Shown: piece by piece, positions 2,542-9,954 of the stretch | Numbering within the stretch: the first letter of the stretch is position 1 | Layout: every line of letters begins with the position of its first letter | Source of the DNA: Oscillospiraceae bacterium | GTDB taxonomy: Bacteria > Bacillota > Clostridia > Oscillospirales > Oscillospiraceae | DNA length: 48,883 bases | Reading direction: 5' to 3' | NCBI GenBank assembly: GCA_017458065.1 | Contig: JAFTGD010000014.1 | Span: 1-48,883 of the forward strand | Translations under genes and position numbers: made by a program | The notes under the pieces: generated by a model | What the model was told of the DNA's origin: nothing | Seen by the model: only the letters and a program-made list of their open reading frames with translations | Databases searched by the model: none

Positions 2542-3891
2542 TTACGCAGCAGCTATGCTTATATACCGAGATCCTGTAAAATATGATCCCTCTTGGAATT
2601 CTTCAAAACGTGTAATTTGACAATGTACCTTCACATAGCTTCCGGGAGAAAAAACTCTCACTTCATCACGATTGATATTCAGTATGGGGAAACATTCAAG
2701 TGAGAACGTCCTCATGGTATCCTGCGCCTGCCGGTTTCCATTGCTATAATCCCATTCAGCCCCTTCTTGGAATACATAGCCGAGTACGGCATAGGGGGAT
2801 GAAACCAAATATAGATTTCCATTTAATACTTCATTGCCGTTTCGCGAACCATAGTCTATAGAGGAGATGTAGCCTTCGATATATACTTCCTGACCGATAA
2901 GCTCGGCGCCATGCGATAAAACATAAGCAACGTCATAGGTATTTACATGATCCCAGAGCCCATAAAAGGCACTTATGCTCATTGATCGAGCGGGCGAATT
3001 ACGATTCCAAAGCTCTGTGGCCTGCTCTATTGGAATAGCAAGGTTCAGGTTTTGCCCTTCAACATACGAAGCGGATGTGATTCCAACAACTTCGCCGTGA
3101 TCGTTGAACAGCGCGCCGCCACTGCTGCCGTGGGAGATTGATGCTGTGAATTGCAAATATGTCTGGCCGTCTTCGGTCACGCTGCCGCTGTACACTCCGG
3201 TCGATACGGAATTTATTAGCCCCAGAGGGCTCCCGATTGCCACGACCTTCGCTCCCTTTTCCAGCGCTGAAGAATCTCCAACAGGCAGGCGGGCAAGGTT
3301 CACATTAACGCCTGTTCCTACGCTCAGGATGGCTATATCTGCGTCTATATCAAAGGCGACAACTTTTGACAGGTTAAACTCCTGCCCGTCTTCTGTCTGT
3401 GCCTTTATGAAATAGGTATCCCCCATGATGACATGACAGTTTGTGACAAACATACCGTCATCATAGGCGGCAAAAGCACTCCCGGTCGCGCAGAGCTCCC
3501 CATATTGGTCATAGCAGCTTAGCATGACAATGGAGTTGGACGCTGCCTGAATCGCTGTTGTATCATCCGAAAAGGCGACCGATAAAGAGGCCGCAGGCGT
3601 CGGTTCTGCCGAGATAGTTGCTGCGGGGGTATGCGTGGCGGCAGTCGGTACCGGCGAAGAGGCAAAAGAGCGAAAATACACGATGTATCCGGCAGCAGCG
3701 ATAACAACGATCAGCAGAAGAATCCAACCGACAGGGCTCTTCTTCCGGCGCTTAGACAGATTGCGTGCTTCTCGTTGCCACTCTTCAGCTGCGCTATTAT
3801 CGATCTTCTTCCTTGTCAGTCTCTTTCCGCACTCCGGGCAGAACCGCGCATTCCCCGACAGCTCCGCTCCACAATATGGGCAATACTTCAC
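2542..3891 (-). CDS. Zinc-ribbon, membrane-anchored trypsin-like serine protease
   Basis: A 449-residue protein. Residues 1-25 are a zinc ribbon (CPYC...CPEC). A basic linker follows, then one membrane segment at about residues 53-72 (GWILLLIVVIAAAGYIVYF), then a threonine/alanine/proline-rich linker. A DegP/HtrA-like trypsin domain spans about residues 105-290. The catalytic triad is visible as His in VTNCHVIMGD, Asp in DIDADIAILSV and Ser in HGSSGGALFNDHGEVVG. No PDZ domain follows; instead there is a C-terminal domain of about 150 residues beginning near YGLWDHVNTYD that I do not recognise. The zinc ribbon is predicted cytoplasmic and the protease outside. It stands alone, transcribed leftward, inside the proposed integrated element. 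Confidence 0.85.
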   Translation of the reverse strand: MKYCPYCGAELSGNARFCPECGKRLTRKKIDNSAAEEWQREARNLSKRRKKSPVGWILLLIVVIAAAGYIVYFRSFASSPVPTAATHTPAATISAEPTPAASLSVAFSDDTTAIQAASNSIVMLSCYDQYGELCATGSAFAAYDDGMFVTNCHVIMGDTYFIKAQTEDGQEFNLSKVVAFDIDADIAILSVGTGVNVNLARLPVGDSSALEKGAKVVAIGSPLGLINSVSTGVYSGSVTEDGQTYLQFTASISHGSSGGALFNDHGEVVGITSASYVEGQNLNLAIPIEQATELWNRNSPARSMSISAFYGLWDHVNTYDVAYVLSHGAELIGQEVYIEGYISSIDYGSRNGNEVLNGNLYLVSSPYAVLGYVFQEGAEWDYSNGNRQAQDTMRTFSLECFPILNINRDEVRVFSPGSYVKVHCQITRFEEFQEGSYFTGSRYISIAAA

Positions 3892-3988
3892 GGTCTCTCC
3901 CCCTTACAACTGTCTGATTATTTTGGGGCGTAAAAAATGCGCGGCCCCATAAGGAACCGCGCAGAAAAATACACAGCTCCTTTTGCTG

Positions 3989-4097
3989 CCACACAATCTT
4001 TGAGCACTAACAGAGAATGCCAAAGTGGAGAGTGTATTTTTGCCGAAACAAAAATACATTCTCTATTAGCGCTCCAATACAATATTAGATTGTGTGG
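3989..4097. repeat. 109-bp nested palindrome (MITE-like or RNA hairpin)
   Basis: Three nested inverted repeats share one centre. The outer arms are perfect (CCACACAATCT at 3989-3999, AGATTGTGTGG at 4087-4097). The middle arms (about 4002-4019 and 4058-4075) and the inner arms (4028-4042 and 4049-4063, loop CCGAAA) have only G-T type mismatches. Middle and inner arms compete for the same 3' strand (CATTCTC), so two alternative folds are possible. There is no open frame worth calling. The region 3892-4334 otherwise holds a GC hairpin at 3940-3962, just upstream of the protease start, and an orphan AAAGGAGG at 4174-4181 with no start codon behind it. Confidence 0.6.
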
Positions 4098-4202
4098 CCC
4101 GTACATCTTACCATATCTGAGGATCAATGACAATCTGTATTTATCTGTAAAAAGCAAAAATATCGTCTCACAAAGGAGGCGACGCAATTAATCAACTTTG
4201 GC

Positions 4203-4231
4203 TTGTAACGTGGGCAGGTATCTGTTATAGT
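4203..4231 (+). promoter_or_regulatory. Promoter of structured leader 1 and the HTH gene
   Basis: -35 TTGTAA (4203-4208), 17-base spacer, -10 TATAGT (4226-4231). Expected start of transcription is near 4238, exactly where the conserved fold described next begins. Confidence 0.5.
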
Positions 4232-4237
4232 TCAGGA

Positions 4238-4303
4238 GAACGAGCCTCCTGATCGACCAGGCGTCCAGTTTGCTGTACGCGGTTGTTATAGGAAGCTCGT
4301 TTC
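4238..4303 (+). ncRNA. Conserved structured leader, copy 1 (upstream of HTH gene)
   Basis: The 5' end of the predicted transcript (AACGAGC, 4239-4245) pairs perfectly with GCTCGTT (4295-4301), and the next TCCT (4247-4250) pairs with AGGA (4290-4293), giving an almost unbroken closing helix. Inside are two stretches shared with copy 2 at 4667-4738: ATCGACCAG (4252-4260) and CGCGGTTGTTA (4279-4289), separated by a small hairpin (GCGT/ACGC). In copy 2 the loop sequences are kept while every helix has different bases that still pair. It lies in the 5' leader of the HTH gene (start 4335), so it may act as a cis-regulatory element. Class unknown to me. Confidence 0.45.
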
Positions 4304-4334
4304 ATAGTCTTATGATATAGGGGAAGAAGATAAA

Positions 4335-4583
4335 ATGCCTAAAGTAACATGGATTAGTCAGCCAAAGCCAAAAGTAAACGAGCTTGCCGCTCTGTTTCGC
4401 GCATATCGCAAGGCCCGGAACATGACCAGCGACGATATAGGGAAAGCTGTCGGCTGCACTCCGCAAAATGCCCGATACCAAATGAACAAGCCGGGAACTG
4501 ACTGGAATATAGGTCAGCTCCTGAAATACTGTGATGTGCTTGGGATTCCGTATGAGGATGCCTTCAAGGCTGCAATACAATAG
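4335..4583 (+). CDS. Small HTH (Cro/CI-like) DNA-binding protein
   Basis: An 82-residue protein whose residues about 14-75 form an XRE/Cro-type helix-turn-helix (ELAALFRAYRKARNMTSDDIGKAV and QLLKYCDVLGIPYEDAF); the recognition helix lies near GCTPQNARYQM. This is a phage- or element-type regulator. The start is an ATG with AGGGGAAGAAG upstream. A structured leader with its own promoter precedes it, and a second copy of the same leader follows its stop. It probably represses element genes or itself, though no target can be assigned from sequence alone. Confidence 0.8.
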   Translation: MPKVTWISQPKPKVNELAALFRAYRKARNMTSDDIGKAVGCTPQNARYQMNKPGTDWNIGQLLKYCDVLGIPYEDAFKAAIQ

Positions 4584-4632
4584 CTGATTCTGTCACAGGG
4601 GAGCCCTCTCGCTGAACTATTGCCATAATGAA

Positions 4633-4661
4633 TTGACGAGAGGATCGGCGTCTGCTAAAAT
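4633..4661 (+). promoter_or_regulatory. Promoter of structured RNA copy 2
   Basis: -35 TTGACG (4633-4638), 17-base spacer, -10 TAAAAT (4656-4661). Predicted transcription start near 4668, at the first base pairs of the conserved fold, the same geometry as for copy 1. Confidence 0.55.
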
Positions 4662-4666
4662 GGACA

Positions 4667-4822
4667 GCGGAGATTATTCCCCCGCTATCGACCAGTCGAG
4701 CCTTCTCAGGAGCGCGGTTGTTAGGGGGAAGCCTCCGCAGAACTCCGATGCGAGGCATTCGCCTCAGCGGCCGACGTCGTACTGTTGTTCGACTGATGGC
4801 CATTGCCGGAGTTCTATTTTTA
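4667..4822 (+). ncRNA. Structured RNA copy 2 with terminator-like 3' hairpin
   Basis: Closing helix GCGGAG (4667-4672) with CTCCGC (4733-4738), then TTCCCCC (4677-4683) with GGGGGAA (4724-4730). Inside are ATCGACCAG (4687-4695), a hairpin over GCCTTCTCAGGAGC, and CGCGGTTGTTA (4713-4723). This is the same layout as copy 1, with compensating changes in the helices. It is followed by a second domain closed by AGAACTCCG (4739-4747) and CGGAGTTCT (4807-4815), containing GAGGC-ATTC-GCCTC, and then ATTTTTA. CTCCG occurs in both domains, so the first helix and the terminator-like helix could exchange partners, as in a riboswitch. No protein gene lies downstream before the tRNA fragment. It could be a free small RNA or the leader of a lost gene. 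Confidence 0.45.
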
Positions 4823-4870
4823 TGGGCTGAGCGACACGTCATAGACATATTTCCCGCTCTTGGTGGAGCA

Positions 4871-4904
4871 AGGGCTGTTTCGACGTGCGGGCATAGCCCT
4901 TTTT
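4871..4904 (+). terminator. Possible terminator
   Basis: AGGGCT (4871-4876) pairs with AGCCCT (4895-4900) and TTTT follows. The stem is short and the loop long, so this is weaker than the other terminators. The whole stretch 4584-5288 has no supportable protein gene; it holds the structured RNA, this hairpin, the 11-bp repeats, the tRNA 3' fragment and its terminator. Confidence 0.35.
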
Positions 4905-4913
4905 AGGCGCTGC

Positions 4914-4950
4914 TTTTTACCGCATTTTTACCGCACAACCGTGCGGTAAA
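4914..4950. repeat. Tandem 11-bp repeats plus inverted copy beside the tRNA fragment
   Basis: TTTTTACCGCA occurs twice in immediate tandem (4914-4924, 4925-4935), and an inverted copy, GTGCGGTAAA, lies at 4941-4950. The last two make a perfect 10-bp stem with loop AACC. Short directly repeated sites about 100 bp from a tRNA-borne crossover site are typical arm-type binding sites of tyrosine integrases or excisionases, which is my inference here. Confidence 0.5.
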
Positions 4951-5053
4951 TCGTCGGAGAAGATGAAACACTGCGAGAAGCAGATGCTGTAAAAGCAGCA
5001 TGAAATAAGGCTTTTTTAGAGATCGTAAAACGCCGCGAAAATTGAAATCCATA

Positions 5054-5099
5054 GCTACGGACCAGAAGGTCAGGGGTTCGAATCCCTTATCGCGTGCCA
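5054..5099 (+). other. 3' half of a tRNA (probably tRNA-Arg-ACG): likely att site
   Basis: From the anticodon loop onward the sequence reads as a tRNA: CTACGGA (anticodon ACG), the other half of the anticodon stem, AGGTC variable loop, a T-arm AGGGG-TTCGAAT-CCCTT, then ATCGCGT + G + CCA. The matching 5' acceptor strand (ACGCGAT) and D-arm are absent upstream, so this is not a working gene. Because its own terminator follows, this appears to be the displaced 3' end left when an element inserts into a tRNA gene. The intact tRNA should lie at the element's other end, left of the window. Confidence 0.7.
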
Positions 5100-5288: not shown

Positions 5289-5681
5289 TCATGCGATTTC
5301 AAGCTTTGCCCTGAGCGCTTCTTGAAGAGTTGCGGAAAAGTTTACACCCTTTTGCTCTGCAAGCGTATTCAGCCAAGCGGGAATGCTAAGGGTTTTCTTT
5401 ACAGCGTAATTGCCGTATTTCTTCCGGTATTCTGAAGTGTCGGCGCTGACAAGCGTCATGATTGCACCATCCGGACAAGAAACGTCTGTTACGCTGGACG
5501 CGGCAGGGATTGGTTGTTTGTCGTCTTCCATCGTCATCAGAACCAGATTAAGCACATCCTGTGCCATCTCCATAGCCTCGCATAGATCGGCGCCGTCAGT
5601 AAAACAGTTCTCCAGATCCGGGAACGTAACGATATACGCACCGTCTTCCGGCGTCATTACAGCGGGAAAAACATACTTCAT
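5289..5681 (-). CDS. hicB: HicB-family antitoxin
   Basis: A 130-residue HicB protein. The N-terminal partially degraded RNase-H-like fold is seen in YVFPAVMTPEDGAYIVTFPDLENC, with the characteristic FPDL and TDGADLCEAMEMAQDVL; a C-terminal ribbon-helix-helix DNA-binding domain is formed by LSIPAWLNTLAEQKGVNFSATLQEAL. HicB binds and masks the HicA mRNA interferase and represses the operon. It is the second gene after hicA, 23 bases downstream. Its DNA-binding domain would be expected to recognise the palindrome that fills the spacer of the hicA promoter. Confidence 0.9.
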   Translation of the reverse strand: MKYVFPAVMTPEDGAYIVTFPDLENCFTDGADLCEAMEMAQDVLNLVLMTMEDDKQPIPAASSVTDVSCPDGAIMTLVSADTSEYRKKYGNYAVKKTLSIPAWLNTLAEQKGVNFSATLQEALRAKLEIA

Positions 5682-5704
5682 CTTATTACCTCCTATAGCA
5701 GAGC

Positions 5705-5923
5705 TTATTTCAGCCCCGCTGCCTTTTTGATTGATTTCAGAGTACCCGGCTTCACGTCCTCTCTGTTATGTCTGCCTACCGGGAATTTTAGCCCTGTTAT
5801 GGGACTGTACCAGATTTCGTGATTTCCGCCCTCGCCGGTCTGGTAACATCCAGCCTTGCGCAGTTCTATCTTCAGTTCGCTGTATCTGATTTTATCATCC
5901 CCTTGACTCTTGAACTGTTCCAA
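5705..5923 (-). CDS. hicA: HicA-family mRNA interferase toxin, start codon unclear
   Basis: The HicA double-stranded-RNA-binding-like fold is clear (RYSELKIELRKAGCY, then GGNHEIWYSP with the catalytic His, and VGRHNREDVKPGTLKSIKKAAG). HicA cleaves mRNA when free of HicB. The open frame begins with TTG at 5923, but that codon touches the -10 box of the only good promoter, so it is probably not transcribed. Within the mRNA no ATG, GTG or TTG is in frame before the fold: where family members start, the sequence has ATC (5890-5888), eight bases after AAGGGG. An ATG six bases further upstream (5899-5897) opens a different frame that would join this one only by a -1 slip at AAAA. The toxin may be weakly translated, or disabled. 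Confidence 0.75.
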   Translation of the reverse strand: MEQFKSQGDDKIRYSELKIELRKAGCYQTGEGGNHEIWYSPITGLKFPVGRHNREDVKPGTLKSIKKAAGLK

Positions 5924-7737: not shown

Positions 7738-9954
7738 ATGGCAATGAACATTACCCGAAGAGACTTTCTGAAAGGCATGGCAGCAGGTGCGGTCAGCGTC
7801 GGCGCAATGAGCGCGATCCCCGGCTTTGTGGCGCCGGTCACCGCAGCGGCGGAGGGCACCCCGTCCGAGACCATCAAGTCGCTCGACATGATCCCCCAGG
7901 CCTACCTCAACCCCCAGCTCAGCGACGCGGAATTCCGTTCCGCGGACATGGAGCTCAAAACCCTGTTCTCGCCGTTCAAGATCCGCAATGTCGAACTGAA
8001 CCACCGCATGGTGAAGTCCGCGGCCGGTTCCGCCTGCTATCTGGCCGGCATGACGGATGAACTGCTGGAGTACTACTTCAACCTCGCCAAGGGCGGCGTC
8101 GAGCTCATCTTTGTCGAGACCATCGACTTCCTCGAAGTGCCCGAGAGCGGCGAATACGACGCCGAGACCAAAGCCTTCCTCGAGAAGCTTATCAACGGCG
8201 TCGCCGAGTACGGCGCAGTCCTCGGCTATCAGGTGTCCGGCTTCGGCATGGGCGAGAACGAGATGACCGTCGACGAAATCCACGCCAGGCAGGCGCGCAT
8301 GGTTCAGGTCGCCAAGGGCCTGTACGAGGTCGGCTTCAAGGTGATCGAGTTCAACTGCGCCGGCTTCAACATGCCGGCCCACTTCCTCTCCCGCTTCCAC
8401 AACACCCGCACGGACGAGTACGGCGGCAAGAGCATCGAGAACCGCGCCCGCTTCGTCACCGAGATCCTGGAGCAGCTTCGCGCCGAGTGTCCGGATCTGG
8501 CCATCCAGTGCCTGATCGACTGCGTCGAGGAGAACGACAACATCGCCAACAACCCCACCATCATGACCCTCGATACCGACGTCACCACGCCGCATACCAA
8601 GGTCTTTACCATTGAAGAGGGCATTGCCGCAGCCAAGCTCTTCGAGGCCGCCGGCTGCGACTCGATGCACCTGCGCGTCGGCCCGCTCGGCCACCACGTG
8701 GCCCAGTTCGCTACCGACCTGTACTTCATCGTCAACGGCGTGGAGGGCGCCACCGGCTTCGGCACCCAGTACGACTTCACCCGCAACTTCCAGGGCAAGA
8801 TGATCGCCAACACCAGCGGCTGCGGCGCAGCGCTGGACATCGCCGCCATGTACAAGAAGGAGCTCAACATCCCCGTCGGCGTCGTCACCTATATGGACCC
8901 GGCCCACGCCCCCGACTTCTTCGAGAAGGCGCTGGAGGACGGCAAGACGGACTTCCTGATCATGAACCGTCCGCTGACCGTCGATATGGATTATGTAAAC
9001 AAACTGCGCGAGGGCCGCATCGACGAGATCGCCCCCTGCACCCGCTGCCTGCACTGCCACTCCGGCTCGAACGAGATGAACGCCATCTTCTGCTACTGCC
9101 GTGTCAACGCCCTGACCCAGCGAGTCATGCGCGAGGGCGGACCCGCCACCTACGAGATCCCCGCGGCCGAGACAAAGAAGAAGGTCATGGTCATCGGCGG
9201 CGGCCCCGCCGGCATGGAGGCGGCCCGCGTCGCAGCCATCCGCGGCCACGACGTCACCCTGTATGAGAAGAAGGGCATGCTCGGCGGTCTGCTCGACTTT
9301 GCCAGCATCGTCAAGGGTCCGCACGAGAACCTGCAGGATCTGAAGAAGTACCTGATCCGCCAGCTTGAGATCACCGGCGTCACCGTCAAGACCGGGACCG
9401 AAGTGACCAAGGAGCTCATCGAGGAAGAGGCTCCCGACGCCGTCATCCTGGCCGTCGGCGGCCTGCGCGACACCCTTGAGGTCGACGGCGATGTGCCCGT
9501 GGTCGACATGGAGCGCTTCATGTTCGACGATCTTGGCGACAACGTCATTGTCTACGGCTCCAACGCCCAGGCCTTTGACGCGGCCCTGTGGCTCACTGTC
9601 CACAAGAAGCACGTCACCATGGTCACGCCCAGCACAGCGGACGACTTCGATATCCAGCAGTCCCAGCATGCCAAGCGCATGATGACCACCGCGCTCTATG
9701 CGCTGGGCTTTAACTCCTTCCCCGAGTCCTCCATCAAGAGCGTGAAGGACGGCATGGCGACCATCACCATGGAAACCGGCCTCGACACCGTGATCCCCTG
9801 TGACGCCATCGTCAACGCGGCCGACATGCTGCCGAACACCAGCCTGCTGGACGGCGTATCTGTGGCCGAAACCTACACCATCGGCGACTGCGCGGCGCCC
9901 TTCAACATCGCGCTGGCCATCCGCGGCGGCAACGACGCCGGCCGTGCGGTATAA
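7738..9954 (+). CDS. Tat-exported Old Yellow Enzyme-type flavin/iron-sulfur reductase
   Basis: A 738-residue enzyme of the 2,4-dienoyl-CoA reductase/BaiCD class. Residues 1-40 are a twin-arginine signal (TRRDFLKG, hydrophobic core, APVTAAAEG cut region). An FMN TIM barrel follows (LFSPFKIRNVELNHRMVKSA, then FNMPAHFLSRFHNTRTDEYGG). The cluster motif CTRCLHCHSGSNE...C lies near residue 433, and an FAD/NAD domain starts with VIGGGPAGMEAARVAA near 484. Electrons would pass NAD(P)H to FAD to 4Fe-4S to FMN to an enone-like substrate. Most relatives are cytoplasmic; export suggests an extracellular electron acceptor or dietary/host substrate, and raises the question of the electron donor. ATG 7738 has GAAAGGAAG upstream. 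Substrate unknown. Confidence 0.9.
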   Translation: MAMNITRRDFLKGMAAGAVSVGAMSAIPGFVAPVTAAAEGTPSETIKSLDMIPQAYLNPQLSDAEFRSADMELKTLFSPFKIRNVELNHRMVKSAAGSACYLAGMTDELLEYYFNLAKGGVELIFVETIDFLEVPESGEYDAETKAFLEKLINGVAEYGAVLGYQVSGFGMGENEMTVDEIHARQARMVQVAKGLYEVGFKVIEFNCAGFNMPAHFLSRFHNTRTDEYGGKSIENRARFVTEILEQLRAECPDLAIQCLIDCVEENDNIANNPTIMTLDTDVTTPHTKVFTIEEGIAAAKLFEAAGCDSMHLRVGPLGHHVAQFATDLYFIVNGVEGATGFGTQYDFTRNFQGKMIANTSGCGAALDIAAMYKKELNIPVGVVTYMDPAHAPDFFEKALEDGKTDFLIMNRPLTVDMDYVNKLREGRIDEIAPCTRCLHCHSGSNEMNAIFCYCRVNALTQRVMREGGPATYEIPAAETKKKVMVIGGGPAGMEAARVAAIRGHDVTLYEKKGMLGGLLDFASIVKGPHENLQDLKKYLIRQLEITGVTVKTGTEVTKELIEEEAPDAVILAVGGLRDTLEVDGDVPVVDMERFMFDDLGDNVIVYGSNAQAFDAALWLTVHKKHVTMVTPSTADDFDIQQSQHAKRMMTTALYALGFNSFPESSIKSVKDGMATITMETGLDTVIPCDAIVNAADMLPNTSLLDGVSVAETYTIGDCAAPFNIALAIRGGNDAGRAV

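Follow-up and report, generated by a model that had tools for sequence, protein, structure and literature searches.

The window analysed here is a contig of 48,883 nucleotides from an Oscillospiraceae bacterium (GenBank assembly GCA_017458065.1, contig JAFTGD010000014.1). It carries a small helix-turn-helix (HTH) gene that is bracketed by two copies, c1 and c2, of a hairpin element referred to as c. The second copy is followed by a further structured domain, B, and the features of this locus are as follows.

4203-4231, + strand: sigma-70-type promoter-like site of c1 and the HTH gene, TTGTAA-17-TATAGT, 5-6 nt before the fold
4237-4304, + strand: c1, a rod hairpin in the HTH leader, with its core at 4252-4288 and the helix CGACC (4254-4258) / GGTTG (4281-4285)
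4335-4583, + strand: gene of an 82-aa HTH protein that shares 71-78% identity with a gene on three IMG/VR viral contigs
4633-4661, + strand: sigma-70-type promoter-like site of c2-B, TTGACG-17-TAAAAT, 5 nt before the fold
4667-4738, + strand: c2, a rod hairpin with its core at 4687-4723 and the helix CGACC (4689-4693) / GGTTG (4716-4720)
4739-4821 (fold to ~4815), + strand: domain B, a three-way junction with the closing stem AGAACTCCG/CGGAGTTCT and a T-rich tail, terminator-like by eye
4815-4862, - strand: phage-gene scrap (SGKYVYDVSLSP), convergent with B as in genome G047, and LPD3-like in the G047 prophage
5054-5099, + strand: 3' 46 nt of tRNA-Arg(ACG), an integration-site-like scar; the intact gene is on contig C74

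The HTH protein matches Pfam HTH_26 with 20.4 bits, just under the cut-off of 22, and c1 lies within the leader of its gene, as the sequence-only reading of this DNA had proposed. The phage-gene scrap was supported by a local-alignment test in which 0 of 2000 shuffles were as good; its G047 counterpart scores 22.8 bits against LPD3, under the Pfam cut-off of 27. DNA similarity to window positions 4825-4862 in G045, G427, and G421 was set aside. The phage-type HTH gene and the phage-gene scrap mark it as prophage-derived, and with the tRNA-Arg 3' scar the locus reads as a prophage or similar element that has been reduced to scraps. The idea that c1 replaced part of a phage gene upstream of the HTH gene was withdrawn; local-alignment tests gave it no support.

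Several other features surround the remnant. A large inverted repeat at 3988-4098, with outer arms GCCACACAATCT / AGATTGTGTGGC and an inner long hairpin, reaches a z-score of about -7 in a sliding fold and is possibly a MITE-like element. The stretch at 4898-5010, beside the tRNA scar, is strongly folded (z to -7.3) with a nested TTTACCGCAC / GTGCGGTAAA. A HicB antitoxin / HicA toxin pair (5289-5923, - strand) lies just outside the tRNA-Arg scar, and a gene for a protein with a zinc ribbon and a trypsin-like protease domain (2542-3891, - strand) adjoins the remnant.

Two hairpins with a fixed core

Each of c1 and c2 is predicted to fold into one unbranched rod with a 37-nt core at its centre. 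The core, ATCGACCAG...CGCGGTTGTTA, was read directly at both places with identical length, which agrees with the earlier description of two copies that keep shared elements in the same positions, and a search that allowed 8-30 nt between the halves found exact core copies in the own genome at these two places alone. The shared elements had been described as two conserved loops; the sequences are indeed kept in place, but they mostly form one helix in which CGACC pairs with GGTTG. This helix includes a G-U pair; AT/TTA borders it on the outside and an unpaired A on the inside. The fixed core is AU-CGACC-A ... GGUUG-UUA with a UNUN (TNTN) tetraloop, and 21 nt separate ATCGACCA from GGTTGTTA.

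Outside the core, the stem arms are unrelated in sequence and their pairing is kept, AACGAGC/GCTCGTT in c1 versus GCGGAG/CTCCGC in c2, and the second stem is TCCT/AGGA versus TTCCCCC/GGGGGAA. Both stem pairs and the inner hairpin were found in c1 and c2, so the proposed helices of differing sequence that still pair are present. The folds have MFE z-scores of -5.5 (c1) and -3.6 (c2), and 0 of 200 shuffles were equally stable. A promoter had also been placed just ahead of each fold, and promoter-like sites with 17-bp spacers do stand 5-6 nt before c1 and c2; in the 851-bp region, both strands taken together, there are 5 promoter-like matches versus 1.1 ± 1.0 in shuffles. It is these promoter-like sites that suggest that the c hairpins are transcribed.

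A third copy and covariation

The third copy, c3, lies inside a prophage of another species in the same genus (genome G207). It was recovered by a two-mismatch motif search of 300 family genomes, the own genome included, which gave 17 non-own matches versus 20 for a reversed-pattern control, and the match count itself is therefore background. The support for c3, which was chosen among these 17 pattern matches, comes from its outer stem and inner pairs, neither of which is used by the pattern. It has the same 37-nt core length, a 16-bp outer stem, and an MFE z-score of -5.85 relative to mononucleotide shuffles, of which 0 of 300 were as stable. As duplexes, the outer stems of c1, c2, and c3 have energies of -17.9, -26.3, and -22.1 kcal/mol, respectively. 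Every other match of the motif searches served as the control set (69 loci, 54 distinct flanks), and all 69 have weaker outer stems than c1-c3, the best at -16.5 kcal/mol.

In the alignment of c1, c2, and c3, 12 of 25 pairs have changes in both partners, and pairing is kept in 90.7% of the cells; neither figure was matched by any of 500 shuffles. When the structure was slid along the alignment the paired cells fell to 37-45%, a comparison that is biased in favour of the covarying structure since it was derived from the same three sequences. The + strand pair cells (n = 75) include 10 G-U versus 3 A-C, which suits an RNA that is read in the direction of the promoter-like sites. The earlier argument that covariation is evidence of a conserved RNA, made from two copies, is supported by the double changes seen with c3. 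At the level of sequence, it is confirmed that c1 and c2 are a real covarying structured-RNA element.

The surroundings of c3 are a prophage late region, with terminase, portal, major head, and virion protein genes on the opposite strand. In the gap that holds c3, 10 of 36 windows (which overlap) fall below z = -2, compared with 12 of 171 in coding DNA, and several promoter-plus-hairpin units can be seen there by eye. A promoter-like site directly before the c3 hairpin was looked for and none was found, and its U-tract is weak. A promoter-plus-hairpin array is located in a prophage late gap of the same genome (L040 8600-11600), in which a 272-aa gene is flanked on both sides by repeats of 232 nt (93% identical) and 143 nt (90% identical).

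Distribution of the hairpin and exchange of its neighbours

Element c is known from three copies only, in two genomes, with at most two per genome among 102 genus genomes. A covariance model was built from c1, c2, and c3, and their high model scores follow by construction. At E ≤ 0.1 the model found, in the 102 genus genomes, the known copies and one 22.8-bit match (G406), which was dropped since the core strings were absent on reading. In 300 genomes of the family the model gave no further copy at E ≤ 0.01, and a 27.1-bit match among 394 order genomes (G085) was dropped because the ORF around it appears to encode a P-type ATPase. The genus, family, and order samples share some of their genomes, and stricter filters applied to searches of this size. 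Exact motif matches in GTDB species genomes (9 in 9 records from unrelated organisms, with an own chance estimate of ~11) were rejected. Three c patterns gave 6, 2, and 36 matches in viral contigs that were judged to be chance from their folds and flanks; c-model scores among them are 20.2 bits (L020/L021) and 19.3 bits (L112). A distant blastn search of phage records found no c-bearing record, and the viral-contig pattern searches gave no convincing copy either. A DNA search with 641 bp in 99 relatives returned nothing beyond the own locus except, in G035, a fragment of the HTH gene.

Known RNA classes were also searched. Rfam 15 gave 0 matches in the window. Permissive scans gave one sub-threshold match in the region and five in L034, none of them at gathering score or overlapping a c copy; L082 and L165 had no match at gathering score, L126 and L130 had none at E ≤ 1, and the remaining permissive scans gave sub-threshold matches only. 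The motif is absent from the titles and abstract openings of the literature searched. The RNA therefore remains unrecognised in the sense of having no matching Rfam family, as had been claimed. The covariance-model check that had been suggested yielded one more homologue with covarying helices and no known class, but not a wide class.

Domain B occurs without c elsewhere. Two further copies are found in G047, both lacking the c hairpin and each directly preceded, as judged by eye, by a promoter-like site. Copy 1 lies in antisense orientation inside a prophage ORF of 2999 codons, immediately following the stretch of which the window retains a scrap, and copy 2 lies between ORFs that were read by eye, without a family scan, as chromosomal. 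The prophage ORF is

L164 5492-14491 (G047): prophage ORF of 2999 aa, with an LPD3-like stretch below the Pfam cut-off and the antisense B cassette in frame

The whole ORF gave no Pfam family at 0.001, and relatives of the LPD3-like stretch were found in neither viral contigs nor phages and, among the 102 genus genomes, in G047 alone. The covariation of B is weak, as 40 of 500 shuffles were as good on pairs changed on both sides, and B is absent from the terminator-scan list, the scan having permitted loops of 3-8 only. Rejected B candidates include a 35.3-bit model match in G415, which was read, without a family scan, as ribosomal-protein coding, four more model matches at 20-22 bits, and one pattern match in viral contigs that was judged to be chance from its fold and flanks.

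A second exchange is seen in G207, where the stretch around a further domain, A, occurs in two places that are 95% identical over 112 nt and 97% identical over 61 nt. One of these stretches ends in c3, whereas the other is closed by an ordinary terminator hairpin. In this respect c behaves like a hairpin module that can be swapped. The domain A tail pattern gave 21 matches, 0 of them with the GCTCGGG arm. Within domain A, a 29-nt place (L034 1451-1481) recurs with 84% identity in 18 listed genus-search rows. Near domain A, a hairpin ACATCGTAAC...GACGATGT has three diverged copies by eye, located as follows.

L082 ~2510-2590 (G207): hairpin ACATCGTAAC...GACGATGT
L082 ~2830-2905 (G207): the same hairpin
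L040 ~8975-9045 (G207): the same hairpin

Possible roles of the element

The structure and its covariation, the promoter-like sites in place, the prophage context, and the separability of the modules are all legible in the DNA itself. The reading that is probably correct is that c is an interchangeable recognition hairpin in prophage-borne RNA cassettes ("RNA morons") that also serves as an HTH leader. According to this reading, c1, c2, and c3 would be one transcribed RNA module, a rod hairpin with a fixed core on interchangeable outer stems. Prophage-derived cassettes made up of a promoter, a structured RNA, and a terminator would carry c in the orientation opposite to the phage genes. c2 and B would together make up a ~150-nt sRNA that has a promoter of its own and a terminator-like end, c1 would be the leader of a phage-type HTH gene, and the fixed core would be the putative recognition site for one protein or ligand.

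A riboswitch expression platform had been proposed for c2, in which a terminator-like hairpin competes with the closing helix. The c2 closing helix and the B stem do contain complementary 5-mers, CGGAG/CTCCG, and in a stretch that ends before the 3' arm of B the competing pairing costs just 5.5 kcal/mol (-56.0 vs -61.5), a nascent-chain cost that a ligand could in principle bridge. However, when c2-B is folded at full length, both closing helices, that of c2 and that of B, are predicted to form with probability 0.91-1.0, and the forced competing pairings reach -56.0 and -56.4 versus -74.5, a cost of ~18 kcal/mol. Additionally, B is present in G047 without c, so competition with c2 need not be the purpose of the B stem. 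The complementarity and the nascent-chain cost of this proposal stand, but the riboswitch reading of c2-B is weakened by the full-length cost and by the separability of B. As a general explanation, c1 and c2 would be riboswitches or attenuators in which a ligand sets the hairpin and hence termination (c2-B) or translation (c1). This would fit a core that is conserved while its stems vary, located close to the start of each of two predicted transcripts, and the terminator-like domain that follows c2, but it is distinctly unlikely: c3 comes after a different domain, no biosynthetic or transport gene lies directly downstream, and c is not spread across taxa. MFE folds of c1 show neither a terminator nor a masked ribosome site afterwards.

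The position of the hairpins near transcript ends and the stability of their folds would also suit a role in merely protecting RNA ends, with no specific partner; this is unlikely, as it leaves unexplained why the core, including unpaired bases, a mismatch, and the TNTN loop, stayed fixed while the other helices changed. Mobile DNA hairpins that act as single-stranded DNA (REP, IS200/IS605 ends, attC-like, or MITE) are likewise imperfect palindromes in mobile DNA, and the module swap in G207 is in keeping with them. However, REP, IS605, and attC elements have near-identical copies or fixed ends, whereas c has a fixed centre and unlike outer arms that were not copied. Its pairing uses G-U, promoter-like sites lie just upstream, there are ≤2 copies per genome in the 102 genus genomes, and the only flanking repeat noticed by eye is ATAGT (5 nt) at c1, with none at c2 or c3, all of which make a DNA hairpin very unlikely. 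The HTH gene is flanked by c1 and c2, and the inner CGTcCAGtttgCTGtACG is operator-like by eye, as would be expected if they were DNA operators of the HTH protein that bracket its gene; this is most improbable, since covarying outer stems would not be required of an operator and no Cro-type HTH was seen among the listed ORFs near c3, where small ORFs lay outside the family scan. It is scarcely credible that the core derives from a fragment of a protein-coding gene, although by eye one reading frame (IDQASSLLYAVV / IDQSSLLRSAVV / IDHPSGIPYEVV) runs without a stop through the cores of c1, c2, and c3 and, in c3, falls within an ORF. In this frame the codons for the fixed residues I, D, and V show no third-position variation while the middle residues vary, the c1 frame has no ATG, GTG, or TTG start between the upstream stop and the core (by eye), and c1-c3 covary.

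For the favoured reading, an interchangeable recognition hairpin in prophage-borne cassettes, the arrangement invites the guess, which is rather improbable, that HTH expression is controlled by a partner that binds c1 and is titrated by c2-B. It is doubtful that the prophages of the genus hold swappable RNA parts (c, B, and A) behind their own promoters together with a leader-plus-decoy circuit of c, in which an sRNA titrates an RNA-binding regulator of the HTH gene. The decoy circuit, if true, would provide compact RNA-based control of a prophage regulator. Decoy RNAs of the CsrB and EutX type resemble this guess in that an mRNA leader and an sRNA share one binding hairpin; unlike them, c has one site per RNA and a binding protein that is postulated.

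The analysis adds an unclassified, covariation-supported RNA element. Like the orphan structured-RNA candidates in Rfam and in comparative screens (such as PMC6429828 and PMC8040213), c is defined by covariation without an assigned function; unlike them, it is known from three copies only and has no Rfam 15 family. It also points to prophage late regions as sites where structured RNAs may be collected and recombined as parts. A precedent comes from a study of EHEC, which describes the anti-sRNAs AgvB and AsxR at prophage moron sites, convergent with phage genes; they are 51-60 nt long, Hfq-bound, and have conserved 3' regions, and AgvB mimics an sRNA target (Tree et al. 2014, PMC4104026). Compared by that description, c resembles AgvB and AsxR as a part of putative prophage small RNAs that are convergent with phage genes and have a conserved and a variable part, but it differs in having a fixed structured core and no recognised antisense seed. 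A position opposite phage genes is found for c3 and B, and the window holds scraps only. Promoter-like sites of their own precede c1, c2, and the G047 copies of B (by eye), and the end of B is terminator-like by eye.
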